Shown: positions 262-11,691 of the stretch, piece by piece
How the letters are laid out: every line of letters begins with the position of its first letter
How positions within the stretch are numbered: the first letter of the stretch is position 1
Assembly: GCA_020832965.1 (NCBI GenBank)
Contig: JAJHRM010000059.1
Span: forward strand, 1-11,794
Source of the DNA: Thermofilum sp.
GTDB taxonomy: Archaea; Thermoproteota; Thermoprotei; Thermofilales; Thermofilaceae
Length of the DNA stretch: 11,794 nucleotides
Reading direction: 5' to 3'
Program-made: the position numbers and the translations under genes
The notes under the pieces: model-generated
What the model saw: the letters and a program-made list of their open reading frames with translations, nothing else
Databases searched by the model: none
Told to the model about the DNA's origin: nothing

Positions 262-290
262 CCTGTCCCCTGTGGAAAGAGAGTATGCGT

Positions 291-308
291 TTCATAAGCT
301 TTTTGCCG
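291..308 (-). promoter_or_regulatory. Candidate TATA/BRE for the antitoxin gene
   Basis: On the minus strand a purine/A-rich stretch (GCAAAAAG) leads into CTTATGAA. This resembles an archaeal BRE plus TATA box whose centre is about 34 nt upstream of the ATG at 261. That would give a leader of about 8 nt. It is a motif match only, with one weak base in the TATA core. Confidence 0.35.
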
Positions 309-435
309 CATAGGGACTTCAGAAGCCTTGCACAGCCTGGAGAACCGCCTCGGCGTGCTCAAGGGGATCTGAAAGAAATGGTTTCAAGGCAGGGAGGATC
401 AAAGCTATCTGCGGCTAGCTGTTTTCTCGTACGAG

Positions 436-469
436 CTCCGCGCGCGCTAACCCCCTACGCGCGGTGGAG
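436..469 (+). other. GC-rich imperfect hairpin in a gene-free stretch
   Basis: CTCC followed by CGCGCG on the left can pair with CGCGCG then GGAG on the right, with a short bulge and a loop of about 11 bases containing CCCCCT. It sits in the 550-base interval between the antitoxin and TetR genes, which has no convincing intact gene, tRNA or rRNA. It could be part of a structured RNA or just GC-rich sequence; nothing else nearby supports an RNA gene. Confidence 0.2.
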
Positions 470-767
470 AGGAGGACTGGCAGCAGCTTGTCGCAGCGAG
501 TCAGAGCAACAGCGTATATATCAACACCCTGCAGAGTCTTCAAGCAATAAAAACTCTAACAAACAACCCTAGATCTGCGGAGCGCGCGAATCCGAACAAC
601 AATAAGAAAGCATAAACCTTTTTCTTGGAGTTATAGAGATACACATCTATGCATCGTCCAGCGGTGAGGAAGAGGCAAGTGGCATTGTTAAGAGGGTGGA
701 ACAATTCCTTATTGAAGAAACTAGAAAAACACTTGGACAAGCAGTAAATATATCGCTTCTGAAGTGA
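451..767 (+). pseudogene. Possible decayed plus-strand coding sequence in two frames
   Basis: Two overlapping open stretches without a usable start read like protein rather than noise. The first (451-615) includes Trp-Gln-Gln-Leu-Val-Ala-Ala-Ser-Gln and Leu-Gln-Ser-Leu-Gln-Ala-Ile-Lys. The second (606-767, a different frame) includes Gly-Val-Ile-Glu-Ile-His-Ile-Tyr-Ala-Ser-Ser and then an amphipathic helix rich in Glu/Lys (Val-Lys-Arg-Val-Glu-Gln-Phe-Leu-Ile-Glu-Glu-Thr-Arg-Lys). Neither begins with ATG or follows a ribosome binding site. One reading is a single gene broken by a frameshift near 560-620; the other is chance. A TATA-like GAAAGCATAAACC at 606-618 precedes only a 32-codon ORF at 649 in yet another frame. 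I do not recognise a family. Confidence 0.2.
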
Positions 768-811
768 TGCAAACACTCCTCATTGATTCCATAATTTTCG
801 TTTGATGTGTT

Positions 812-1351
812 TCATTTGTTGGGTGTCTCATATATAAGGGATAGGAGTTCTTCTATGTATTCTTTTTCGTTAAGCTCTATAGGCTTGTTGATGGAATAAC
901 ACATTAAGGCGCCTAAAAGAACTCTCATCTTGACGATGTTTTTGGTGCTTAGTTCTCCAAAGGCCTTTAGTGCTGCCCTTTGTAACATTTCTCCGCATGT
1001 CTTCTGAAGTAATTCGGCTAAAGGCATATAGTTGCTTGAGGCTGAGAGGGAGTGGAGCAAGAGGTTTCTCATTTTTGGGTCGGAATACTTTGAAATATAG
1101 GACTCGGCGATACACCTCAGCAGGTCTTTTCCTACAACTTCTTTCTCCAAGCAACTGCTAATTATCTCTGCTGGAAGAGCTTTCCTTGCAACCTCTAGGA
1201 TAAGTTCATCTTTATCTTTGAAGTACCAGAAAATAAGGCCCTTGGATACACCCGCACGCATTGCAATAAGGTGTGTAGGGGCCCGGAAAAAGCCATATTC
1301 ACTGAAAACCTCCACAGCAGCTTCAATGATCTTTTTTCTGGTTTCCTCCAT
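812..1351 (-). CDS. TetR/AcrR-family transcriptional repressor
   Basis: The 179-residue protein has the standard TetR N-terminal helix-turn-helix at about residues 8-50: Ile-Ile-Glu-Ala-Ala-Val-Glu-Val-Phe, then Ile-Ala-Met-Arg-Ala-Gly-Val-Ser-Lys-Gly, then Phe-Trp-Tyr-Phe-Lys-Asp-Lys-Asp-Glu-Leu. The rest (about 55-179) is an all-helical ligand-binding/dimerisation domain of normal TetR length and, as usual, gives no hint of the ligand. It is transcribed away from the transporter at 1457 with 105 bp between the starts. The minus-strand TATA box (1382-1389) abuts the left operator half-site at 1395-1403, so autorepression is likely. The ATG at 1351 is about 10 nt from the predicted transcription start with no strong ribosome binding site. 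Base composition is more AT-rich than the downstream ABC and transaldolase genes. Confidence 0.92.
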   Translation of the reverse strand: MEETRKKIIEAAVEVFSEYGFFRAPTHLIAMRAGVSKGLIFWYFKDKDELILEVARKALPAEIISSCLEKEVVGKDLLRCIAESYISKYSDPKMRNLLLHSLSASSNYMPLAELLQKTCGEMLQRAALKAFGELSTKNIVKMRVLLGALMCYSINKPIELNEKEYIEELLSLIYETPNK

Positions 1352-1381
1352 GTTTTCGTCAAGGTTGTATTGTTGAGGTGG

Positions 1382-1389
1382 TTTAAAAA
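1382..1389 (-). promoter_or_regulatory. TATA box of the tetR gene
   Basis: On the minus strand TTTTTAAA lies with its centre about 34 nt upstream of the tetR ATG, which predicts a leader of roughly 10 nt. The left operator half-site begins six bases upstream of it, where the BRE and TFB contact DNA, so an occupied operator should also block this promoter. Confidence 0.55.
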
Positions 1390-1394
1390 TGTTC

Positions 1395-1435
1395 TGACTG
1401 ACCCATCAACCAAACATTTATTAAGCGGTCAGTCA
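1395..1435. promoter_or_regulatory. TetR operator bracketing the transporter TATA box
   Basis: TGACTGACC (1395-1403) and GGTCAGTCA (1427-1435) are perfect 9-bp inverted repeats with 23 bp between them. Inside lies the plus-strand TATA box TTTATTAA (1417-1424). Its expected start site is about 1446-1448, giving a roughly 10-nt leader that carries GGTGA ahead of the transporter ATG at 1457. Both promoters of the divergent pair are covered. The same arrangement recurs at 2769-2815. TetR repressors normally bind inverted repeats near their own gene. That this TetR binds here is inferred from position and symmetry. Confidence 0.75.
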
Positions 1436-1456
1436 ACAAAAATAAGTGGTGACAGC

Positions 1457-2470
1457 ATGAGCAAACGAGCAGCAACAAAGAAAAGCGCCGTAAGCTGGCT
1501 AGCTGACGTCGTTAAAAAATACCTCGTCCTGCTCTCGCTTTTTTCGACACTTTTAGCCTTACCTGTGGGATTTTGCTTTAACAAGGCTATCGTCTCTAAC
1601 AAGCCTCTCATTTCGAACACTGTACTAGTGCTGGCTTTCCTTACAATTTTCCCCTCAATGATTCAGCTCAAGACTGAGGGACTGTTGAAAAGTATGAAGA
1701 AAGTTAAGGAGATTGTACTCTCCTTGCTCTATGTATTTATTGTTTCTCCATTGTTGGCTTTCCTCATAGCGCCTACCCTAGGCGATCCACATATTGGAGT
1801 TGGATACGTCTCCGCCAACGTTGTACCAGCTTCCAGTGCATCAATCGGATATGTCCTAATTGCCGGGGGGAGCATAGAGCTTGCAACAGTCCTAGCGGTA
1901 TTAACCCTTATCCTTGGCATACCCTTGATACCAATTCTCATAGGCTTGTATAGCAGCAGTGTTTCGATTTCTGTCCCAATGGAGCCTGTCGTGAACTCAC
2001 TCGTCGAGGTACTTGTGCTTCCCTTAATTCTTGGACAACTGACAAGGTACATACTTATAAGGACAAAAGGCACGCCATATGTGGATAAAACAATCAAGCC
2101 TCACCTTTCATTGGCAACCATGCTTTCCATGCTCGTTCTAATATTTGTTCTCGTACTAAACCAGGCTATGACTGTTATCAACAAGCCGATGCTGGCCTTA
2201 CTCATAATTGTATACCAGTCGATAGTTATTGTTGCTCTCCTCCTGGTCTCAACGCTGGTAAGCAAGGCACTAAGAATATCCTACGAGGATCACCAGGCCC
2301 TTGCCATGATATCCGTAACCAAGAACCAGAGTGTAGCAGCCGCGATGGCTACCGCCGCGCTTGGACCACAATCCGCACTGGCACCCGCATTGATACCAAT
2401 CATTCAGCCTGTCCTAGCAATAGCTTATCTCAATGCAGAGGGCTGGATACGAAAATTCCTACAAGGTTAA
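1457..2470 (+). CDS. BASS/ACR3-like membrane transporter (bile acid:Na+ symporter superfamily)
   Basis: This 337-residue polytopic protein has about nine to ten hydrophobic segments (roughly 22-40, 52-68, 84-105, 113-136, 141-165, 180-200, 217-240, 244-270, 280-303, 307-326). It matches the BASS/ACR3 layout: Phe-Pro-Ser-Met-Ile-Gln-Leu near 65-71, the Pro-Ala-Ser-Ser-Ala-Ser unwound region near 124-129, and Thr-Lys-Asn-Gln-Ser-Val-Ala near 288-294. Relatives are Na+-coupled symporters or arsenite effluxers. The Cys and Glu that ACR3 uses for metalloid transport appear to be replaced here by Ser/Ala and Ser/Val, so arsenite is not assured as substrate. The reading frame extends further upstream but crosses the operator and TATA box. 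The ATG at 1457 has GGTGA five bases ahead and sits just after the predicted transcript start. Control by the divergent TetR suggests efflux of a toxic or amphipathic compound. Confidence 0.82.
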   Translation: MSKRAATKKSAVSWLADVVKKYLVLLSLFSTLLALPVGFCFNKAIVSNKPLISNTVLVLAFLTIFPSMIQLKTEGLLKSMKKVKEIVLSLLYVFIVSPLLAFLIAPTLGDPHIGVGYVSANVVPASSASIGYVLIAGGSIELATVLAVLTLILGIPLIPILIGLYSSSVSISVPMEPVVNSLVEVLVLPLILGQLTRYILIRTKGTPYVDKTIKPHLSLATMLSMLVLIFVLVLNQAMTVINKPMLALLIIVYQSIVIVALLLVSTLVSKALRISYEDHQALAMISVTKNQSVAAAMATAALGPQSALAPALIPIIQPVLAIAYLNAEGWIRKFLQG

Positions 2471-2763
2471 AAGATCCACGAAAGGGACTAGGTATTAAGT
2501 AATATCTTTCCCTTAGTAGGAGATTTTTTTATCTATCCCCGGAAACATTGTCAGCGACACTAAACCTTTATACTCCCATAACGGTCCTTTTCCTTTGAGG
2601 CATCCCTTCTCCTCCTGCATGGGCCCTTACATGCTTAATACTCTCGAATACGCGAATCAAACTTCCATAGTCACCTTAAACATAAGTTGTTTATACATCC
2701 TTTTCCATGTTGGTTTTTAACGCGTATATTCGCTCACAGGGTTTCTCAACTCTCTCGTTTTAA
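2471..2763. other. Gene-free stretch between transporter and small repeat protein
   Basis: I see no intact gene on either strand in these 293 bases. It is AT-rich and holds a T7 run soon after the transporter stop (listed separately) and several TATA-like words (CTTTATAC near 2566-2573, TTTATAC near 2690) that lead to no recognised gene. Confidence 0.5.
2524..2530 (+). terminator. T-run terminator after the transporter
   Basis: Seven consecutive T residues lie about 55 nt beyond the transporter stop. Just before them an AAGGGA / TCCCTT pair could form a weak stem. Archaeal RNA polymerase terminates at T-rich tracts without needing a strong hairpin. Confidence 0.45.
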
Positions 2764-2768
2764 ATGCC

Positions 2769-2815
2769 TGACTGGCCAGATGGTCAGCCAAAAGATTTAT
2801 TAACCAGTCAGTCAA
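2769..2815. promoter_or_regulatory. Second TetR-type operator and promoter
   Basis: TGACTGGCC (2769-2777), GGTCAGCCA (2782-2790) and CAGTCAGTCA (2805-2814) surround the TATA box TTTATTAA (2796-2803). The first two form a 7-of-9 inverted repeat with a 4-bp gap. The outer pair matches the arrangement at 1395-1435. From the shared TCA(A/G)CCAAA through TATA to GTCAGTCAA the two promoters align with one inserted base. The predicted transcript start (about 2825-2827) falls on or beside the ATG at 2827, implying a leaderless message. This is strong sequence evidence that the transporter and the small protein are controlled together. Confidence 0.72.
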
Positions 2816-2826
2816 TACATTACTTG

Positions 2827-3144
2827 ATGCCCATGCCAAAGTGGGGCTGGAAATTCGGGCCAAGGCACCACTGCTACTACATGACGGAGAGCGTGCCGAG
2901 GGAGCAAGTAGAGGCGAGGCTCAAGGAAACCCTCTCCAGGGCATCCAAGGGGCATAGCTGGACAAACCCGTGGGGGATTAAGCACACTGAGATAGTCGTC
3001 GAGAACGAGGTCGTAGGTACCATCTGGGAAGACGTCGACCTAAGCACCTTAGCTCTGGGCGCATACTGGGTAGGACCATGGGGAATAAAAGCGGAACTCG
3101 TCAAGGACGGAAAAATAGTCGGAATGACCTGGCTGAAACCATAA
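2827..3144 (+). CDS. Small Trp/His-rich protein with an internal PWGIK repeat, function unknown
   Basis: I do not recognise this 105-residue protein. It has no signal peptide or membrane segment. Residues about 47-69 and 83-105 are copies of one unit: Pro-Trp-Gly-Ile-Lys, a beta-like stretch, an acidic/Gly turn (Glu-Asn-Glu or Lys-Asp-Gly-Lys), Val-Val-Gly or Ile-Val-Gly, and a Trp four residues later. The N-terminus carries Trp-Gly-Trp-Lys-Phe-Gly-Pro-Arg-His-His-Cys-Tyr-Tyr-Met, a possible third divergent copy and a possible metal or ligand site (His14, His15, Cys16). Residues 24-41 look like an amphipathic helix. The frame is open from an ATG at 2764, but that ATG lies upstream of the operator and TATA box, so the start at 2827 is preferred. 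The shared operator links it to the TetR-controlled transporter, perhaps as a ligand-binding or resistance accessory. Confidence 0.78.
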   Translation: MPMPKWGWKFGPRHHCYYMTESVPREQVEARLKETLSRASKGHSWTNPWGIKHTEIVVENEVVGTIWEDVDLSTLALGAYWVGPWGIKAELVKDGKIVGMTWLKP

Positions 3145-3158
3145 AACCCTAAAAAATA

Positions 3159-3183
3159 TTTTTTTCTTTTTTTATTTTTCTTT
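3159..3183 (+). terminator. Strong T-tract terminator
   Basis: Starting 15 nt after the small-protein stop, the plus strand has 21 T among 25 bases, in runs of 7, 7, 5 and 3. This is a typical crenarchaeal T-rich terminator and marks the end of the TetR-controlled module. It also marks where base composition shifts from AT-rich to GC-rich. Confidence 0.65.
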
Positions 3184-3423
3184 AAACTTGTGTTTACTGC
3201 ATATGCGTAGTAGAAGAAACGAGTTAAGGTATGACGGCTATCACACGCTAGCTCCCCCGCTTGACTAATCGAACCCCTGGAGCTCCCCGCACCTCTCCTC
3301 TGCTCGCCTAAAAAGCTCATTTGACTGTTCATTTCGGAGCCCTGCACACAAGCTTGGCGATAATCGAGCTAGGCTTGTTCTAGGAGGTCGTGCGGCTTCC
3401 AGGAGCATGCACCGCCCTGGCAG

Positions 3424-4140
3424 CTACTCGACTGTCAGCCTCTGCCTCAGCGCCAGGGTTGTGAAGAGCGCAGTGTAGGCTGCGGTGGCCGCGGCTGGCA
3501 GCAGCAGGGGCACCTCGGTCGGCACCCCCACCAGGTGCTGGGCTACGAGCTTCAGGGCCACAGTGGGTATGAGCGTGCTCACCAGCTGGATCTCGCGCGG
3601 AAGGATGGGGACCGGGTAGATGACTGGTGGCAGTAGGATGAGGAGGAGGTTGAGGAGGCTCGCTGCGCTGGAGACTCTCATGGGGTCTGCGAGCTTGCCG
3701 TACACGTAGAGGCCGAAGGCTGTTCCAGCAAACCAGGCCAGCAGTATCGAGGCAGCGATGAGCGGCAGCGAGACCGGGCTGACGCCCACTGTCAGAGCCA
3801 TGATCGCCAGCACGACCGTCGCCGGCGCGATGATGACCGCGAGGTGGGCTAGCGCGGATGCGACAGCGAACTCGATCGGCTTGAGGGGGCTTGCCACGAA
3901 CATGTCCATGAGCCTCCACACCCTGTACGTGGCCAGCTTCCTCGCCAGCGCGAAGCTGCCCGAGCTCCACGCGACCGCTACGAGGATTCCGAGGAGCGAC
4001 TCTACACCCCTGCCCGTCCCCAGCTGCACGACCATGAAGATCACGAGGGGGATAATCAGGTCGCTCACGAACGCCAGGGGCTCCTTCATGTAGCTCAGCG
4101 TCATGAACACTGCGGCACCAACCACCCTGCTAGCCCTCAT
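3424..4140 (-). CDS. ABC-2 type exporter permease
   Basis: The 238-residue protein has six hydrophobic segments (about 22-40, 48-66, 92-115, 122-147, 160-178, 209-231) and no soluble domain, fitting the ABC2_membrane permeases of the DrrB/NodJ kind. A characteristic feature is the conserved Leu-Leu-Pro-Pro-Val-Ile-Tyr-Pro stretch at about 169-176 followed by a short re-entrant region (Pro-Ile-Leu-Pro-Arg-Glu-Ile). Such permeases homodimerise and partner with an ATPase to export drugs, lipids or glycoconjugates. Its ATG lies inside the end of the ATPase gene (11-bp overlap, with GGTGA just upstream), so the two are translationally coupled. Substrate cannot be read from sequence. It converges on the T-tract of the small-protein gene, with 240 bp between. 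Confidence 0.88.
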   Translation of the reverse strand: MRASRVVGAAVFMTLSYMKEPLAFVSDLIIPLVIFMVVQLGTGRGVESLLGILVAVAWSSGSFALARKLATYRVWRLMDMFVASPLKPIEFAVASALAHLAVIIAPATVVLAIMALTVGVSPVSLPLIAASILLAWFAGTAFGLYVYGKLADPMRVSSAASLLNLLLILLPPVIYPVPILPREIQLVSTLIPTVALKLVAQHLVGVPTEVPLLLPAAATAAYTALFTTLALRQRLTVE

Positions 4141-5047
4141 ACCTGCTCACCCTCATGATGAAGAGGTCCTCGAGAGAGGTAGCCCTCACGGAGAAGCTCA
4201 ACCTCCTCCTCGCGAGCTCCCCCACAACCTCGGACAGCTCGCCCTCGCTCCCGGCGTAGATGATCTTCCCATCCTCGGCCTCCAAAACCCTGAGGCCGAG
4301 GCTGCTCGTGTCGGCGTCCCTGTCCAGCACAACCCTGTACCTGTGCCTCACTTTCCCAAGGAGTTCCCGCGGGTTACCCATCTCCACAATCCTCCCCTTG
4401 TTGATCATGACCACGAGGTCGCTCAGGCTCTCCGCCTCCTCCATGTAGTGCGTCGTGAGGAAGACCAGCGAGTTCCTGGCAGCGCCCCTCAGCACCTTCC
4501 ACACCTCCCTCCTCGCTATGGGGTCCAGCCCCACGGTGGGCTCGTCGAGGAAGTACACCTCCGCGGGCACAGCCAGTGCCGAGGCTATGAGGACCCTCTG
4601 CCTCGTACCCCCGCTGAGCCTCGCGCACACCCTGTTCCTGACCTCCCAGAGGCCGAGCGCCTCAAGCGCCTCCCTAGCCAGCTTCTCCGCGTCACCCCTG
4701 GGCAGCCCCCTGCTCCTCAAGTACCAGTACACGTGCTCGTACGGCGTGAGGTAGAGCTCCGGGCTGGCGTCCTGTGGCACTAGGGAGACCCTCCTCCTGA
4801 CCTCCTCGTACTCCCTCTCTACGTCGTACCCGAGCACTTCAGCCCTGCCCCTCGTCGGCCTGGTGAGCGTCGTCAGGATCTTTATCAGGGTGGTCTTCCC
4901 CGCGCCGTTCGGGCCTACTAGGCCCACGATACCCTTCTCCCCGACTGAGAATGATACCCCATCCAGGGCTATGACGCCCCCTGGGTAAACCTTGGCGAGC
5001 CCCTCGGCGAGTATGTACGGCTTGTTCACCGGAACACCCCCGCCCAT
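4130..5047 (-). CDS. ABC-2 exporter ATP-binding subunit (DrrA-like)
   Basis: This 305-residue nucleotide-binding protein has all catalytic motifs: Walker A Gly-Pro-Asn-Gly-Ala-Gly-Lys-Thr (45-52), Q-loop Gln92, signature Leu-Ser-Gly-Gly-Thr-Arg-Gln-Arg (144-151), Walker B Val-Tyr-Phe-Leu-Asp-Glu-Pro (164-170) and switch His200. The C-terminal 80 residues form the small regulatory extension common in DrrA/CcmA-type subunits, ending Ser-Leu-Glu-Asp-Leu-Phe. It energises the permease encoded immediately downstream. The ATG at 5047 follows AGGAG and GGAGG within a 13-nt leader predicted from the TATA box at about 5082-5092. A GTG six codons in, preceded by GGGGGTG, is a reasonable alternative start. 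High GC and codon use match the genes to its right. Confidence 0.94.
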   Translation of the reverse strand: MGGGVPVNKPYILAEGLAKVYPGGVIALDGVSFSVGEKGIVGLVGPNGAGKTTLIKILTTLTRPTRGRAEVLGYDVEREYEEVRRRVSLVPQDASPELYLTPYEHVYWYLRSRGLPRGDAEKLAREALEALGLWEVRNRVCARLSGGTRQRVLIASALAVPAEVYFLDEPTVGLDPIARREVWKVLRGAARNSLVFLTTHYMEEAESLSDLVVMINKGRIVEMGNPRELLGKVRHRYRVVLDRDADTSSLGLRVLEAEDGKIIYAGSEGELSEVVGELARRRLSFSVRATSLEDLFIMRVSRYEG

Positions 5048-5081
5048 CCTCCTGTCTCCTTGGCGTGGCAGGAGCCCTCCC

Positions 5082-5098
5082 TAAAATTTTTTGCGCAG
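5082..5098 (-). promoter_or_regulatory. Promoter of the ABC exporter operon
   Basis: On the minus strand GCGCAAAAAATTTTAG reads as a BRE plus TATA box. Its centre is about 39 nt before the ATG at 5047, giving a leader of about 13 nt that consists almost entirely of AGGAG/GGAGG, a clear ribosome binding site. Confidence 0.5.
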
Positions 5099-5140
5099 CT
5101 TAGCCGCTGTAGGGTCAAGCAGGGCGCTACGTGCCACGCG

Positions 5141-5245
5141 CTACCGCGCAGGGGCTAGGCCCCTTCCTATAAGCTCGTGCAGAGCCGCCTCTGAGACCGA
5201 GACCAGCAGCTCTCTCGCCTGGCTCAGCAGGGGTGCAGGCTCGTG
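5141..5245 (-). pseudogene. Possible minus-strand coding remnant
   Basis: The minus-strand frame ending at 5141 reads Leu-Leu-Ser-Gln-Ala-Arg-Glu-Leu-Leu-Val-Ser-Val, then Ser-Glu-Ala-Ala-Leu-His-Glu-Leu-Ile-Gly-Arg-Gly. This is a protein-like amphipathic helix pair ending in a stop. Upstream the frame decays into His/Arg/Gln-rich noise with only a TTG as possible start. It faintly recalls small helical HEPN-like proteins, but the stretch is too short to assign. Confidence 0.17.
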
Positions 5246-5450
5246 CCTGGAAACGTGACACAGGTGCTGCAGTTGTCTATAGATGTGGCACGTACCTCTT
5301 CTTGGAAGTTGACGGGAAGATATTCCACGCAACTCGGACGTCGGGTTAGAGGAGTTCGCGAGGTTGCTGATGGTGAAGATTGGAGACGCGGTGAGGCTGT
5401 GGGTTACTGACGATAAAATTGCCCAAGTTGAAGCCTTAATTCTTCGAGTT
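5233..5450 (+). pseudogene. Possible frameshifted small plus-strand gene
   Basis: From a GTG at 5233 one frame reads, among other things, Gly-Ala-Ala-Val-Val-Tyr-Arg-Cys-Gly-Thr-Tyr-Leu-Phe-Leu-Glu-Val-Asp-Gly-Lys-Ile, a convincing beta-hairpin pattern, and stops at TAG 5347-5349. One base back, the next frame (from 5346) continues Leu-Glu-Glu-Phe-Ala-Arg-Leu-Leu-Met-Val-Lys-Ile-Gly-Asp-Ala-Val and Leu-Trp-Val-Thr-Asp-Asp-Lys-Ile. Joined by a frameshift near 5340 they would make a domain of about 70 residues. A TATA-like CCTATAAGC lies at 5166-5174. There is no recognisable family and no proper stop before the opposing gene end at 5471, so a decayed gene is the likeliest reading. Confidence 0.25.
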
Positions 5451-5470
5451 TCTTTCTGGGTTTTTATCTC

Positions 5471-7612
5471 CTACGTTAGCTCCCGCGCCTTCCTCACGCA
5501 CTCCTCCCTGAATGCATTGTATGCCTCCGTGAATCCCTTCATCGTCTTTACCCTTGAGCCGAAGCTTGCCCACTCGCCTGGCTTTAAGCCGCCCAAACCC
5601 ATCTCCTCCACCCCCTGAACACCTGCCTCCGTAAGTATCCCTGCAAGTTCAGGTGTGAGCTCGTAGGCTTTCCTGAAGTCCTCGATAGTCATAAGCGTTT
5701 CTTTAATTGCGTCGCTGTGCTTCCTAAGTATTGACCAGTCGTAGTCCTCCAGCTTGAGTCCCTTCTCGGCGTACTCTAGGTGGACGTTTAGCTGGTGGTT
5801 GGGGAACTCCGTGTTGGTCATGTTCCTTCTCGCAAGCGTAAGGTAAGTGTCCGCAGGCTTCCTCTTTGACGCTGGGAGGACGTCTATGCCCCTCAGAACA
5901 TCCTCCGCCTGCTCCGGGCTGAGGGAGTACTTCCTGACTATGTAGGCTAGCCACTTGCCGTAGTTCTCGTCGCTGAAGAATATCCACCAGACCCTCTGAG
6001 CGACTAGTGTGCCAGCGAGGCTTATAGCTTCCTCAATCTTCTTCAGGTTGGACAAGGCTTCATCAGCTGTGGCTCCACAGACGCCCGCTCCTGCGAGGAA
6101 CTCTGCCAGGTCCCTGCTTGCCAGTGTCTTAACGTACGCCTGGCTGGCTACGAGCCCAACTTTCTCCTCTAGAGTCGCTGCCTCAACGCTGTAGCCCCAG
6201 CCCGTCGGAGCCTTCCATTTCTTGCCGGGTTCCGCTCCGGGCACGCCTAGCCTCCTTGCCAGCTCTGCGAGCGCTTGCTCAGGCTGGTCTAACTTCCTAA
6301 GCGCCTCCGATATGAGTTCAGCTGCTTTGACCTCCCTCAGGTGCGCCTCTAGCCTGCCACCCATGTTTGTCTCGTAGACCTTTGTAGGCTTCACCCCCCT
6401 CTTTACTGCTTCAACTCTCCCCTCTATTTTTGCGAGAATGAGCTGAACCTCCTGCGAGACAGTGAATGTCACGGTGTTATTCGTGCCGATCCCTAGGCTC
6501 TCAAGCCTCCTCGTTATCTCGATTGCCGCCTCGCTGCTCCCGGCAACCTTGAAGACTATGTTCGGCCTCCCCCTCTCCAGGTAGCTTGGCCACCCCCACA
6601 ACAGGTATGCGTCGTAGCGCTTAAAGTACTCCTCGCACAGCTCGTAAATCTTCAGAGCGTCCCTGAGGCTGCCCTCGACGCTGTCGGCGACGTTGGGGTT
6701 TAGCTGGTAGCTGACCATGCCGTCTTGGAAGTCTAGCAGGTATGCTGCCGGTCTGAGTACTTCCATGTTTGGCCACAGGGCTATGAGTGTCGCAGCCATT
6801 GCTAGGGCGTCTGGATCCTCCTCGACTTTCCTGAGGAGCTCGGGGTTCTTCCTAAGGTATTCTTTGAACTTGTCCCAAAGTGATGGGTCGTCCTTGTATG
6901 CTTCAGCCGCTAGAACCGGGTTTGTTGAGACCTGGACGAAGCCCAGGTGCCTGAGCCACCTCAGCCCGAGGGCGTAGTCATTACCGAATCGGCATAAGCC
7001 CTGCTTAGACATCCTGTAGTACGCGTTGCCCTGCAGCTCCCTTACTGCTTCACGCGTGAAGCTCGAGGCTGGCTTGGATTCTTCAATCCTCGCCCTTATT
7101 TTCCCGGCCATTGAGGCGAGCATGCTCTTCGTCCTCGGGTTGCTCGACATCACTTTCTCCATGTCGCCCAGCATGTAGTCAGCCGCCATGCGCGCCGCTA
7201 CTGCCACGCCGGCTTCACGCGCCTCCTCATTTTCCAGCGAGGAGAGCTCAGCCTCTATGGATGTGATGGTCTTCACTCGCTCCCGGTGTGGAATGCTTGC
7301 CCAGTCTGCTTCCAGGCTAGCGGTGTTGAGGGCTATTTCCATGAGTAGCTGGTAGATCCTCGCTCTCCTCGCAAGCCTCTGCTCCTCGCTCAGGCTTCCC
7401 AGGCGTAGGAATTCGAGGTGGCTCTGCCTGCAAACCTGCCCAACTACAAGTGAGTACTTGCCAGAGATCTGTGGGTTTAGGAGGTTGTCTGCGCCGAGCT
7501 CGGGGAACCCTTTAAGGGCTACGTATAGTGCAAGCGAGGAGTGGTCATTGGCTGGGGGGCTTGGGGGCAGCTCCTCTGGAGGGGGAAGCTTTACTCTTAC
7601 GGCTGATGGCAT
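5471..7612 (-). CDS. Large transaldolase-superfamily protein with unusual catalytic acid and long extensions
   Basis: The ATG at 7612 gives 713 residues. A GTG at 7690 would add 26, but a TATA-like CTTATAAG (7658-7665) lies between the two. About residues 205-435 match transaldolase: a lone Asp212, Ser-Thr-Asn-Pro-Val-Leu (229-234), Val-Ser-Tyr-Gln-Leu-Asn-Pro (300-306), Ile-Val-Phe-Lys-Val-Ala-Gly (352-358, Schiff-base Lys355), Gly-Thr-Asn-Asn-Thr-Val-Thr-Phe (376-383), and Gly-Gly-Arg (418-420, phosphate site). E. coli TalB is 317 residues and uses Asp17, Glu96 and Lys132. The Glu96 position here reads Gln303. About 200 residues precede and 290 follow the core, mostly helical, with no signal peptide. 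Known members transfer dihydroxyacetone units between sugar phosphates; the true substrate here is unknown. It stands alone, divergent from the serpin gene. Confidence 0.72.
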   Translation of the reverse strand: MPSAVRVKLPPPEELPPSPPANDHSSLALYVALKGFPELGADNLLNPQISGKYSLVVGQVCRQSHLEFLRLGSLSEEQRLARRARIYQLLMEIALNTASLEADWASIPHRERVKTITSIEAELSSLENEEAREAGVAVAARMAADYMLGDMEKVMSSNPRTKSMLASMAGKIRARIEESKPASSFTREAVRELQGNAYYRMSKQGLCRFGNDYALGLRWLRHLGFVQVSTNPVLAAEAYKDDPSLWDKFKEYLRKNPELLRKVEEDPDALAMAATLIALWPNMEVLRPAAYLLDFQDGMVSYQLNPNVADSVEGSLRDALKIYELCEEYFKRYDAYLLWGWPSYLERGRPNIVFKVAGSSEAAIEITRRLESLGIGTNNTVTFTVSQEVQLILAKIEGRVEAVKRGVKPTKVYETNMGGRLEAHLREVKAAELISEALRKLDQPEQALAELARRLGVPGAEPGKKWKAPTGWGYSVEAATLEEKVGLVASQAYVKTLASRDLAEFLAGAGVCGATADEALSNLKKIEEAISLAGTLVAQRVWWIFFSDENYGKWLAYIVRKYSLSPEQAEDVLRGIDVLPASKRKPADTYLTLARRNMTNTEFPNHQLNVHLEYAEKGLKLEDYDWSILRKHSDAIKETLMTIEDFRKAYELTPELAGILTEAGVQGVEEMGLGGLKPGEWASFGSRVKTMKGFTEAYNAFREECVRKARELT

Positions 7613-7650
7613 GTGAGGCTCAACTTTTAAAACTGCATATTTCCCTTTCC

Positions 7651-7717
7651 AGAAATGCTTATAAGGCAAGTCGTCCAAGCACCTGAACACGTTTGTTCAA
7701 CGCATGGCTTAATTAGC
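7651..7717. promoter_or_regulatory. Divergent promoter region of the transaldolase-like and serpin genes
   Basis: Two near-symmetric TATA elements lie between the genes. AGAAATG-CTTATAAG (7651-7665) has a good BRE on the plus strand, yet its palindromic core could also serve the minus strand, with a predicted minus start near 7636 and a 24-nt leader to the ATG at 7612. GCTTAATTAGC (7707-7717) is centred about 28 nt before the serpin ATG at 7740 and would give a nearly leaderless serpin message. Which TATA drives which gene cannot be decided by eye. Confidence 0.45.
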
Positions 7718-7739
7718 AGGGCTGGATTACTGGTTCTTG

Positions 7740-8993
7740 ATGGTGGGGCAGGGTTCAAAAAGGTTTGTGGGGATATTCGCGGTAATACTGTTATTAGCCA
7801 CATTAGCTGCCGTGATCGTAATGCTGTTCGAGAGGCGGGGGGAGATGCCGCCAGCAGTTCAGCAGCCGGCTGTGCCAGCTGTTGAAGCTAGCCCGCTAGA
7901 GTCTTACACAGGTTTCGCCCTGAAGTTTTCACTCATGGCTGGCCTCGGCGACAAAAACACTGCAGTTTCACCTTTCAGCGTGTACCCAGCTCTGCTGATG
8001 CTGAGCGAGGGGGCTGCTGGGGATACCAGAGCAGAGCTCCTGGCGGTGCTCGGTCTCTCGTCGCAGGTGGAAGCGAGGGAGTGGTTTAAGTCTAGCTCCC
8101 AGAGGTTTTTAGGCGTTCAGCCACAGGCTAAAACGTCGATCGCCAACAGTTTATGGGTTAGAAGCGGGGTCCCAGTCAAGGATGGCTACGTAAAGACGCT
8201 TGAGACGTACTACCTGGCTGAACACTACTCCTTCGGCGACACAGTTGATGCGGCTAGGAGGATCAATTCCTGGGTATGCGATAAGACGAACAAGCTGATC
8301 GATAGGATAGTTGACTACCTGGATCCATTAACCATGATCGTTCTAGTGAACACCGTCTACTTCAAGGCGAACTGGACAACACGCTTCGAAAACATGGTCA
8401 ACGAGACCTTCAACTCCCCGAGGGGGCCTGTCCGAACAGAGTTCCTCTCAGGTACCGTCAATGCGAAAATCATCGAGAACGACGACTACGTTGCAGTGGC
8501 TCTCAGCTACACTGGCACGGACGTGAAATTCGTAGCCCTGATGCCCAGGAGGCTCCCCTTAAAGGAGTACATGAGCAGGATCTCTGAGAGGGATCTCCTG
8601 AACATGCTTGCAGAGCTGTTGAGCAAGAGCGATGAGAGGGTTAAGCTGCTGCTCCCAAAGTTTGACGTAGACAGCGGCATAGTTGAGCTGAAGCCTCTCC
8701 TCAGGGGCATGGGGATAGGAAGAGTTTTCGACCCGGACCATGCGGACCTCTCAGAAATGCTTGACTACAGCAAGCTTCCGGGGAAAGCCTACGTCAGCAA
8801 CGTGTTTCACAGAGCTAGGGTCAAGGTTGACCTGTACGGCACCGAGGCTGCAGCCGCAACCGCGATAGTCATCAGGATTACAGCTATACCCGGAGAGGTA
8901 AAAACCGTGAAGATAGATAGTCCGTTCGCATTCTTCCTGGTTGACCCAAGCACAAAGGCTATCCTCTTCGCGGGGAGCTACGTAGGACCATAG
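7740..8993 (+). CDS. Membrane-anchored inhibitory-type serpin
   Basis: This 417-residue protein has an N-terminal basic segment and transmembrane helix (about 9-30), a Pro/Ala-rich linker (about 35-52), then a full serpin domain (about 53-417). Recognisable blocks are Asn-Thr-Ala-Val-Ser-Pro-Phe-Ser (73-80), Ala-Asn-Ser-Leu-Trp-Val (135-140), Leu-Val-Asn-Thr-Val-Tyr-Phe-Lys-Ala-Asn-Trp (202-212), the hinge Gly-Thr-Glu-Ala-Ala-Ala-Ala-Thr (367-374) and a Ser-Pro-Phe-Ala-Phe-Phe strand (394-399). The alanine hinge is what inhibitory serpins need to insert the reactive loop. Counting as in alpha-1-antitrypsin puts P1 at Thr381 and P1' at Ala382, suggesting an elastase-, subtilisin- or proteasome-like target. 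The usual P17 Glu is Leu365. It should sit outside the cell, tethered to the membrane. The ATG at 7740 is chosen over an adjacent TTG because of the TATA box at 7709-7715. Confidence 0.93.
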   Translation: MVGQGSKRFVGIFAVILLLATLAAVIVMLFERRGEMPPAVQQPAVPAVEASPLESYTGFALKFSLMAGLGDKNTAVSPFSVYPALLMLSEGAAGDTRAELLAVLGLSSQVEAREWFKSSSQRFLGVQPQAKTSIANSLWVRSGVPVKDGYVKTLETYYLAEHYSFGDTVDAARRINSWVCDKTNKLIDRIVDYLDPLTMIVLVNTVYFKANWTTRFENMVNETFNSPRGPVRTEFLSGTVNAKIIENDDYVAVALSYTGTDVKFVALMPRRLPLKEYMSRISERDLLNMLAELLSKSDERVKLLLPKFDVDSGIVELKPLLRGMGIGRVFDPDHADLSEMLDYSKLPGKAYVSNVFHRARVKVDLYGTEAAAATAIVIRITAIPGEVKTVKIDSPFAFFLVDPSTKAILFAGSYVGP

Positions 8994-10319: not shown

Positions 10320-11237
10320 TCACCATATCATTATGCCAAAGTAACCTGTTATGAATTTGAGGGCTACGTACAGGAAATACACCCCGAAGATCAGTTTGAG
10401 GATATTTGGCTTAAACCTCTTAATTATTGCAGCGCCGATCTGTGCTCCTACAACTGTGCCTGCTCCTAGGAGGAGCCCTGCCCCGAGAGCTACGTAGCCC
10501 TGCGCAGCCTTAATCAATCCACCAATAGTAGCTAGTGGAATCATCGCCGCCAGAGAAGTCCCCATTGTGACATAGACTGGTGCATTGAACAGGTATATTA
10601 ACCCTGGAACGAGGGCATACCCACCGCCTAAGCCAACTATGCCTGTCAGTATTCCTATGATGAAGCCAAACATGCCCATCAATATCCTGGACCCGGGAAT
10701 TGTTTCGCCCTCTCCCCCTCCACTTTTGGGTTTTGCTATGCCTATTCCTTCAACTATCATCCTGTATGATGGCCAGAGGAATGCGATGCCTAGAATAAGG
10801 TTTAAAGTTTTGACTTGCTGAACGAGCAACGTAAAAAGCCAGGAACCTACAAGTACGCCTAGGGTGCCTAGTCCTCCTATCCAGAGTGCGGCGCTCTTGT
10901 CAAGGTTTCTGCGCACCAGATGCCCATAGGCCCCGGAAACTGTTGTAAAGATTACGGCGAAAAGCGTTGTTGCTATGGCGATTGGTGCGGGATAGCTAAG
11001 CCAGAAATGCAAGATCGGTAGCATGACACTGCATCCTCCAGTACCGATGAGCCCTCCTAAGAGCCCAGCCCCGAGCCCAACAGCTACTAGTATCACTGAG
11101 TCTAGCGCTGTAATCGGCGGCGTATCCTTATGCGAAAGGTTTCCCGAGAAGTACGTAGCAACCATCAAAACAGCTATAAGCGTTAGTAGCGCAATTGTGG
11201 GAACATAGCTTTTAATCAGGCTCTCCTTAGCGGTCAT
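10320..11237 (-). CDS. TauE/SafE-family membrane permease (sulfite/organosulfonate exporter-like)
   Basis: This 305-residue protein has eight to nine transmembrane segments and the duplicated TauE/SafE architecture. The first repeat carries Gly-Leu-Gly-Ala-Gly-Leu-Leu-Gly-Gly-Leu-Ile-Gly-Thr-Gly-Gly (54-68), the second Gly-Ile-Leu-Thr-Gly-Ile-Val-Gly-Leu-Gly-Gly-Gly-Tyr (195-207), each followed by a Pro-containing helix. A Gly/Lys-rich cytoplasmic loop near 166-182 joins the halves. Relatives move sulfite, sulfoacetate or other small anions, usually outward. No sulfur gene is beside it here, so the substrate is open. GGTGAT lies five bases before the ATG at 11237. Predicted control is through the divergent promoter with palindrome 11259-11272. 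A short AAAAA-TGC-TTTTT inverted repeat at about 10294-10306 beyond the stop may terminate the transcript. Confidence 0.88.
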   Translation of the reverse strand: MTAKESLIKSYVPTIALLTLIAVLMVATYFSGNLSHKDTPPITALDSVILVAVGLGAGLLGGLIGTGGCSVMLPILHFWLSYPAPIAIATTLFAVIFTTVSGAYGHLVRRNLDKSAALWIGGLGTLGVLVGSWLFTLLVQQVKTLNLILGIAFLWPSYRMIVEGIGIAKPKSGGGEGETIPGSRILMGMFGFIIGILTGIVGLGGGYALVPGLIYLFNAPVYVTMGTSLAAMIPLATIGGLIKAAQGYVALGAGLLLGAGTVVGAQIGAAIIKRFKPNILKLIFGVYFLYVALKFITGYFGIMIW

Positions 11238-11258
11238 GCCATCACCTATTGGTATTTT

Positions 11259-11299
11259 TGTGATATATCACATTTTATACTGGAATAGAAATATATATG
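11259..11299. promoter_or_regulatory. Divergent promoter with perfect 14-bp palindrome
   Basis: TGTGATATATCACA (11259-11272) is a perfect palindrome with TGTGA half-sites spaced by four bases, resembling CRP/FNR-type operators in form only. The minus-strand TATA (TATAAAA, around 11273-11279) would start the TauE/SafE transcript near 11250, so the palindrome lies between TATA and start site, a classic repressor position. The plus-strand AAATATATAT (11290-11299) is about 26 nt before the ATG at 11320 and predicts a leaderless message for the HTH protein. Confidence 0.6.
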
Positions 11300-11319
11300 T
11301 TTTGTTGCGTTTTAGCTGT

Positions 11320-11691
11320 ATGTGCTCTTGCTGGTGTAGGAGGAGGAGAAAGGGTTTAGCCGGAAGGACTCCAAAACCGGTGGCAGTATCGTCCATTCCA
11401 GCGGCTAGCGCTTTTTACCCATACCCAGTCTTGGAAGCCGAGCCAGTGTACCTAGAGCTTGCTGAGGTTGAGGCATTGAAGCTGATAGACATCGAGAAGC
11501 TTTCCTATGAGGATGCTGGGAGAAGAATGAACATATCAAGAAACACCGTTTGGAGGCTTGTCGAGAACGCGAGAGAGAAACTCGCCAGAGCCATATTCGA
11601 GGGCAGACCCGTAATTATATTAAAGGAGGAATCATTTAAAGACCAGCCTGCGTGCCCGTACTTTTCTTTTTCTGGCACCCTGTGGCAATAG
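11320..11691 (+). CDS. DUF134 (UPF0251)-like HTH regulator with Cys-rich N-terminus
   Basis: The 123-residue protein matches the DUF134 plan. It opens with Met-Cys-Ser-Cys-Trp-Cys and an Arg4-Lys patch (1-11), then has a Pro-rich linker (19-42) and a sigma-70 region-4-like helix-turn-helix (about 43-95) including Glu-Val-Glu-Ala-Leu-Lys-Leu-Ile-Asp, Leu-Ser-Tyr-Glu-Asp-Ala-Gly-Arg-Arg-Met and Ser-Arg-Asn-Thr-Val-Trp-Arg-Leu. A short tail has one more Cys (112). DUF134 proteins are presumed DNA binders; the cysteines suggest metal or redox sensing, which is inference. The frame is open from 11236, but ATG 11320 is preferred because the TATA box at 11290-11299 predicts transcription starting on it. 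Divergence from the TauE/SafE permease across a shared palindrome suggests it controls that transporter. Confidence 0.8.
   Translation: MCSCWCRRRRKGLAGRTPKPVAVSSIPAASAFYPYPVLEAEPVYLELAEVEALKLIDIEKLSYEDAGRRMNISRNTVWRLVENAREKLARAIFEGRPVIILKEESFKDQPACPYFSFSGTLWQ

Follow-up and report, generated by a model that had tools for sequence, protein, structure and literature searches.

A small archaeal protein with an internal repeat shares a promoter element with an SBF-superfamily transporter gene and recurs beside such transporters

In an 11,794-nucleotide stretch of Thermofilum sp. DNA (the window), a gene for a 105-residue protein lies downstream of a gene for a transporter of the SBF/BASS superfamily, and the two genes are preceded by the same promoter element. 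Strong matches to the protein in Thermococcales are in most cases encoded near an SBF gene as well. On sequence grounds, the protein is a member of a family that occurs in archaea and some bacteria, has no name, and is often encoded next to exporters of metals, metalloids, or anions. The reading that we prefer, with middling confidence, is that it belongs to an efflux-type detoxification module as a soluble accessory protein, co-induced with an exporter and working with it. Soluble helpers of metal or metalloid exporters are known in a few systems (ArsD, CopZ, and CusF). If our reading is correct, this would be a helper common to SBF transporters and P-type ATPases in two domains of life that works without the usual conserved Cys, His, or Met ligands, and it would help to approach what the non-ACR3 SBF transporters of hyperthermophiles carry. 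Should the neighborhood link alone hold up, a family that lacks annotation would still gain a role open to testing. Table 1 lists the features of the window that are discussed below.

Table 1. Positions of the regulator, transporter, promoter elements, and 105-residue protein in the window
Feature	Position	Strand	Description
TetR-family regulator	812..1351	-	TetR_N 56 bits (cut-off 24); divergent from the transporter; presumed binder of the shared element
TATA-like ATTTATTAA + GGTCAGTCA	1416..1435	+	Transporter promoter; upstream at 1395-1403 is an inverted arm, TGACTGACC, with all 9 bases matching
SBF/BASS-superfamily transporter	1457..2470	+	337 aa, counted from the ATG at 1457; PF01758; not ACR3
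TATA-like ATTTATTAA	2795..2803	+	Before the 105-aa gene; 24-32 bases ahead of the ATG at 2827
Operator-like GTCAGTCAA	2807..2815	+	Site of the 105-aa gene; its upstream inverted arm (2765-2775) is imperfect, 91% over 11
105-aa protein gene	2827..3144	+	Predicted: aromatic N-terminal stretch without order, then a helix and two meanders of three strands each
N-terminal segment, residues 6-17	2842..2877	+	Predicted disordered; W8 in 36/39 rows, K or R at 9 in 36/39, Y17 in 34/39
Repeat 1, residues 41-68	2947..3030	+	From hhalign of the halves; PWGIK at residues 48-52 (2968-2982); predicted strands 40-46, 52-58, 61-66
Repeat 2, residues 77-103	3055..3135	+	From hhalign of the halves; PWGIK at residues 84-88 (3076-3090); predicted strands 76-83, 86-93, 96-103

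A protein family without a name

The reading frame of the 105-residue protein has an upstream in-frame ATG at 2764, which would yield 126 residues instead. The relative P0002, which is 92% identical over the whole length, begins at the same Met as the frame that starts at 2827. A profile search recovered 40 relatives at E ≤ 1, the weakest of them at 3.6e-13, and from these and from P0002 we conclude that the gene is real and is as the original prediction described it.

That prediction also held that the protein matches no recognized family, and the HMM and structure searches agree. Against Pfam and NCBIfam there was no match even at E 10, and among PDB sequences nothing scored below E 0.7 with the protein alone or below E 0.04 with the family profile. 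Structure searches with the predicted model gave no convincing fold match and none bearing an active site. In the case of UPF0339/YegP (2k8e and 2k49), the structural Z is so low that a chance arrangement could explain it, and the 105-residue protein has no Pfam match. In the open-licence literature, no description of the family was recognized among the matches listed, and neither the locus tags of relatives nor the string PWGIK gave a match there.

The transporter gene and the 105-residue protein gene share a promoter element

Before both genes we find ATTTATTAA followed by GTCAGTCAA, at 1416-1436 for the transporter and at 2795-2815 for the 105-residue protein. The pattern TTATTAANVNGTCAGTCAA occurs exactly twice in the window (1418-1436 and 2797-2815) but in none of 200 shuffles, a comparison that is circular because the pattern was derived from its own two sites. 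A 21-bp comparison of the two promoter regions is the less circular test, and here the best ungapped match is 19/21, a value that none of 300 dinucleotide shuffles attained (largest 18). The earlier claim that the same element precedes both genes is borne out, and its role as an operator is a probable one. As archaeal promoters generally go, a TATA-like box located 24-32 bases before the ATG fits a leaderless transcript for the 105-residue protein gene.

The transporter-side copy of the element sits between the TetR gene and the transporter gene because these two are divergent. The TetR-like protein probably represses both the transporter and the 105-residue protein through the shared element. 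The TetR and transporter genes have GC contents of 0.42 and 0.46, compared with 0.55 for the 105-residue protein gene and 0.64 for the neighboring ABC genes, and the AT-rich segment at 812-2470, which holds the TetR and transporter genes, was possibly acquired.

With a promoter element in common with the transporter and a TetR-type gene adjacent, the 105-residue protein could also act on the repressor as a soluble sensor of the ligand, which might be caged by the conserved W45, W67, E68, D69, and W81. We consider such a sensor improbable, since the regulator family differs by lineage (TetR, ArsR, or MerR) and since the proteobacterial members of the family look exported by eye, which would place them away from DNA. 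The regulator of Thermococcales loci is of the ArsR type and that of Azohydromonas is MerR, so TetR as the constant third part of the system is not supported.

The transporter belongs to the SBF superfamily and is not an ACR3

The transporter had been described as an efflux-type BASS protein. Its superfamily assignment stands, with 83.1 bits to the SBF domain (PF01758) against a gathering cut-off of 24.3, while an identity as an ACR3 arsenite exporter does not. The ACR3 model (TIGR00832) gives a long but weak match, which covers positions 5-312 of 327 and reaches 75.9 bits against a cut-off of 282.8, whereas true ACR3 proteins at loci L006, L051, and L086 score 385.8, 390.5, and 389 bits. ACR3 is described as having an essential Cys in TM4 and an important Glu that is implicated in proton coupling (PMC9671657). 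The window transporter has Ala at the column of the essential Cys (NVVPASSAS) and, near the Glu column, where the alignment is gapped, it has KNQ versus KNE in Cys-bearing SBF proteins. An ACR3 assignment for the window transporter is therefore rejected on the score and on the replaced Cys.

The essential-Cys column also separates the Thermococcales transporters. The 16 SBF genes that adjoin relatives of the 105-residue protein have Leu (13) or Gly (3) there and are therefore not ACR3, and some of them lie in islands with metalloid and metal genes. Nine second SBF genes located downstream have Cys (7) or Gly (2). In the alignment, identity with the window transporter is 32% for the Gly type of L051, 29-31% for the Cys type, 23-24% for the Leu type, and 17% for ACR3. 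Its match to the L051 SBF protein extends over 325 residues (32%, E 7e-51), and that to the SBF protein of the actinobacterial locus L088 over 252 residues (25%, E 2e-8).

The 105-residue protein contains a real internal duplication

The two PWGIK copies had been proposed to mark tandem units. When the two halves of the protein are aligned with each other as profiles, hhalign gives a probability of 93.7 over 27 columns, with 44% identity in the 105-residue protein itself, and 0 of 200 column-shuffled controls equal that probability or score. Because the halves align as profiles and the shuffled controls do not, we conclude that the tandem units go back to a true duplication and follow the scheme G-x-x-W ... 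G ... V ... V-G-x-x-W. PWGIK as an exact string varies across the family and so drops out as a family feature. Conservation was read from an alignment of 39 rows, which consist of the query and 38 of the 40 relatives from the profile search (the frameshifted P0003 and the 55-residue P0043 were omitted).

An AlphaFold2 model made from the 39 sequences (mean pLDDT 82, pTM 0.70) has residues 1-18 disordered, a helix at 25-38, and six strands that form two three-strand meanders, one in each repeat, with a folded part of about 85 residues. Although the pLDDT around W8 and the K or R at position 9 is 41-46, these residues are kept in 36/39 rows. G64, D69, G86, and L91 are invariant over the 39 rows, and L36, G42, W45, G50, W67, E68, G78, Y80, W81, and G99 are kept in 36 to 38 of them. 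The 105-residue protein carries all three marks of the family, namely the internal repeat, the W-E-D motif, and the N-terminal W-[KR].

The conserved residues bear on how a ligand might be held. Metal binding through an N-terminal His-His-Cys cluster at residues 14-16, as originally suggested, was not supported, with His14, His15, and Cys16 found in 3, 4, and 2 of the 39 rows. No column of Cys, His, Met, or Ser is invariant over the 39 rows beyond the start Met, and the lack of an invariant Cys, His, or Met makes it unlikely that all members share a soft-metal site. Cys47 and Cys49 occur in 8/39 and 12/39 rows, several of the carriers being Thermococcales, and they are close in sequence to H53 (33/39), so a lineage-specific site in some members is possible.

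A small enzyme acting on a toxic ligand, with the invariant Asp as the catalytic residue, would account for D69 in 39/39 rows and E68 in 38/39. We regard such an enzyme as very improbable. The folded part is small, none of the Cys, Ser, His, or Met columns is invariant, and the structure searches yielded no relative with an active site, although the lack of such a match says little. The CusF/SilF periplasmic Cu(I)/Ag(I) chaperones resemble the family in outline, in that they are small soluble beta proteins encoded with an export system and have prominent aromatics. The metal site of SilF comprises one His and two Met, with a Trp over the site (PMC10656224). The 105-residue family differs, with no conserved Met column beyond the start Met and no invariant His, and a His-Met-Met-Trp site of the CusF/SilF type is rejected because the Met columns are not conserved.

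The pairing with an SBF transporter recurs in Thermococcales

We surveyed 94 genomes of the order to which G002 belongs (the genome of Thermococcus locus L003), and 46 of them have relatives of the 105-residue protein at E ≤ 1e-3. A phylum-wide search matched 45/115 genomes at E ≤ 1e-5, every one of them already found within the order. The strong matches comprise 22 loci in 21 genomes, and the remaining ones (E 5e-13 or weaker) form a distant branch. Seventeen of the 22 are operon-type loci with a full-length relative at E ≤ 1.4e-47; the others are four at about 1e-36 and one 61-residue fragment. The 1e-36 group includes a Thermococcus peptonophilus plasmid gene and two more that likewise have a long N-terminal region. 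The T. peptonophilus relative has 148 residues with a Met-rich N-terminus, and its neighbors are a Cu-type P-type ATPase (653.8 bits, cut-off 397), a SHOCT protein, and an HTH gene.

The proposed link with the transporter recurs in this survey and so withstands the check for conservation in other genomes: an SBF gene lies within 5 kb at 18/22 strong loci, the four without one being the 1e-36 group. All but one of the 17 operon-type loci (16) have the SBF gene directly after the relative, on the same strand and starting within 150 bp, and the 17th has one 1257 bp away. SBF genes at E ≤ 1e-10 are present in 46/94 genomes, that is, in 21/21 with a strong match versus 25/73 others (Fisher 1.5e-8, a value that ignores shared ancestry). 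Since 25 genomes have an SBF gene without a strong match, the transporter does not need the 105-residue protein. The Thermococcales loci are related and not independent, and L001 and L067 are the same plasmid.

Within 5 kb of the 17 operon-type loci we also find genes for TauE/SafE (12 loci), Usp (10), SLAC1 (8), DGC-domain (6), OsmC (6), OYE-type (4), CDF (2), LMW phosphatase (2), and P-type ATPase (2) proteins, where each cluster name is based on one scanned representative. An ArsR-type HTH gene is found at 16/17 loci when blastp is run over the whole 13-17 kb stretch and at 12/17 within 5 kb by the ORF-picker, a program that misses genes and from which the gene order was read. At L051, the LMW phosphatase scores up to 85.1 bits with arsenate-reductase models, under their cut-offs, and the locus also carries its true ACR3. 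At L086 (genome G077, positions 3714-5639), a shortened SBF gene, the 61-residue fragment, and a TauE-like gene (by eye) stand in the usual operon order with a true ACR3 nearby, and the shortened SBF gene and the fragment look as if they had decayed together.

The Usp, OsmC, and OYE-type neighbors would suit a different role, that of a general metal- or oxidant-stress protein, e.g., a scavenger or a protector of proteins, which has regulons in common with exporters and does not act on any transporter. A stress protein would also fit partner transporters that are unrelated to one another (SBF, two kinds of P-type ATPase, and MFS), as well as genomes such as G022, G091, G092, and G094-G098, which have the distant branch only and no SBF gene at E ≤ 1e-10. 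We consider this role rather unlikely, because SBF is the sole cluster of the 12 tallied that occurs at all 17 operon-type loci and because the window, on the far side of the tree's deepest split, shows the SBF pairing again.

Family members on both sides of the deepest split, and in bacteria

In the tree, the window protein groups with P0002, P0032-P0035, P0037, and P0038 (98/89), and this group is next to the alphaproteobacterial members (92/87). A 99/98 split, the deepest, parts the window protein from the Thermococcales members. The tree is midpoint-rooted, with the root for drawing only, and four rows were added to the alignment, L088 not among them. Because the window and the Thermococcales members lie across this split, the pairing with SBF occurs on both sides of it.

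The distant branch in Thermococcales (e.g., L018, L037, L044, and L045) has the same domain (profile comparison probability 98.8, E 4e-17), but it differs from the 105-residue family in mostly lacking the W-E-D motif and the Trp residues, and some members have an N-terminal hydrophobic segment. The distant-branch genes at L018 (1462-1752), L037, L044, and L045 have no Pfam match. The neighbors are DUF2202, DUF4405, radical SAM, ArsR-type HTH, and MFS genes, and the DUF2202, DUF4405, and ArsR-type genes are again what a stress protein might adjoin.

In bacteria, P-type ATPase, SBF, or MFS genes adjoin the relatives, with the exception of one locus. Azohydromonas sediminis and a Burkholderiaceae MAG have, in line, a P-type ATPase, a gene of unknown type, MerR (scanned in Azohydromonas only), and the relative, so that the ATPase and MerR are upstream of it; the proteins encoded at L006 and L007 are identical. 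The Azohydromonas P-type ATPase is closest to a proton-pump model (561.9 bits, just under the cut-off of 615.5). On the opposite strand, Azohydromonas carries a CDF transporter, a true ACR3 (385.8 bits) about 2.3 kb off, an ArsR-type HTH gene, and an LMW phosphatase with no arsenate-reductase match at E ≤ 1e-20. The Actinomycetes MAG has two copies of the relative. One (L015) is found 52 bp after the C-terminal portion of a P-type ATPase, and the other (L005) has a one-base overlap with an MFS gene. L088 comes from the order of that MAG and has consecutive SBF, SLAC1, P-type ATPase, and relative genes at 283-6559; its ATPase looks split over two frames, recombinase pieces lie behind the relative, and the segment is possibly a mobile island. 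A Hyphomicrobiaceae locus is a negative case: it has two tandem copies of the relative and no exporter among the five neighbors scanned. Four of these five encode two glycosyltransferases, an S1-P1 nuclease, and a phosphoesterase, and the fifth matches nothing.

Relatives occur in 2/349 sampled genomes of the Azohydromonas family, 1/103 of the family of the Hyphomicrobiaceae MAG, and 2/298 sampled of the actinobacterial order, and this rarity fits horizontal spread. A scan of genome contigs relied on a single pattern to which even the protein of the window does not conform; of 72 stretches, 7 were confirmed, so its count is an undercount. By eye, the proteobacterial members have signal-peptide-like starts and the archaeal and actinobacterial members do not, so a partner surface common to all would need to be available at both faces of the membrane, which counts against the accessory reading.

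A possible mechanism

In the mechanism that we favor, the TetR-like protein would repress the SBF transporter and the 105-residue protein at the shared TATA-flanking operator, and a toxic ligand (a metalloid, metal, or anion) would lift repression so that both genes are co-expressed. The 105-residue protein would then act together with the transporter, with its rigid twin-meander domain holding the ligand or presenting a surface to the transporter and its conserved disordered N-terminal W-[KR]...Y segment serving as a docking or capture tail. A more specific version, which we offer tentatively and think rather unlikely, is that the family is a new kind of soluble partner of SBF exporters and some P-type ATPases, spread horizontally among archaea and bacteria, in which a duplicated beta-meander domain and a conserved disordered aromatic tail hand over a toxic anion or metalloid, or gate unrelated exporters, by means other than conserved Cys, His, or Met ligands.

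Other features of the window

Few archaeal serpins are known, and this archaeal-looking window has one at 7737-8993 on the plus strand (PF00079, 255 bits). A 739-residue protein at 5471-7690 on the minus strand matches transaldolase/F6P-aldolase (48.9 bits) over residues 247-420 only. At 10320-11691, a TauE/SafE transporter (146 bits) is divergent from a DUF134/sigma-r4-like regulator, and the two are possibly another anion-export pair.
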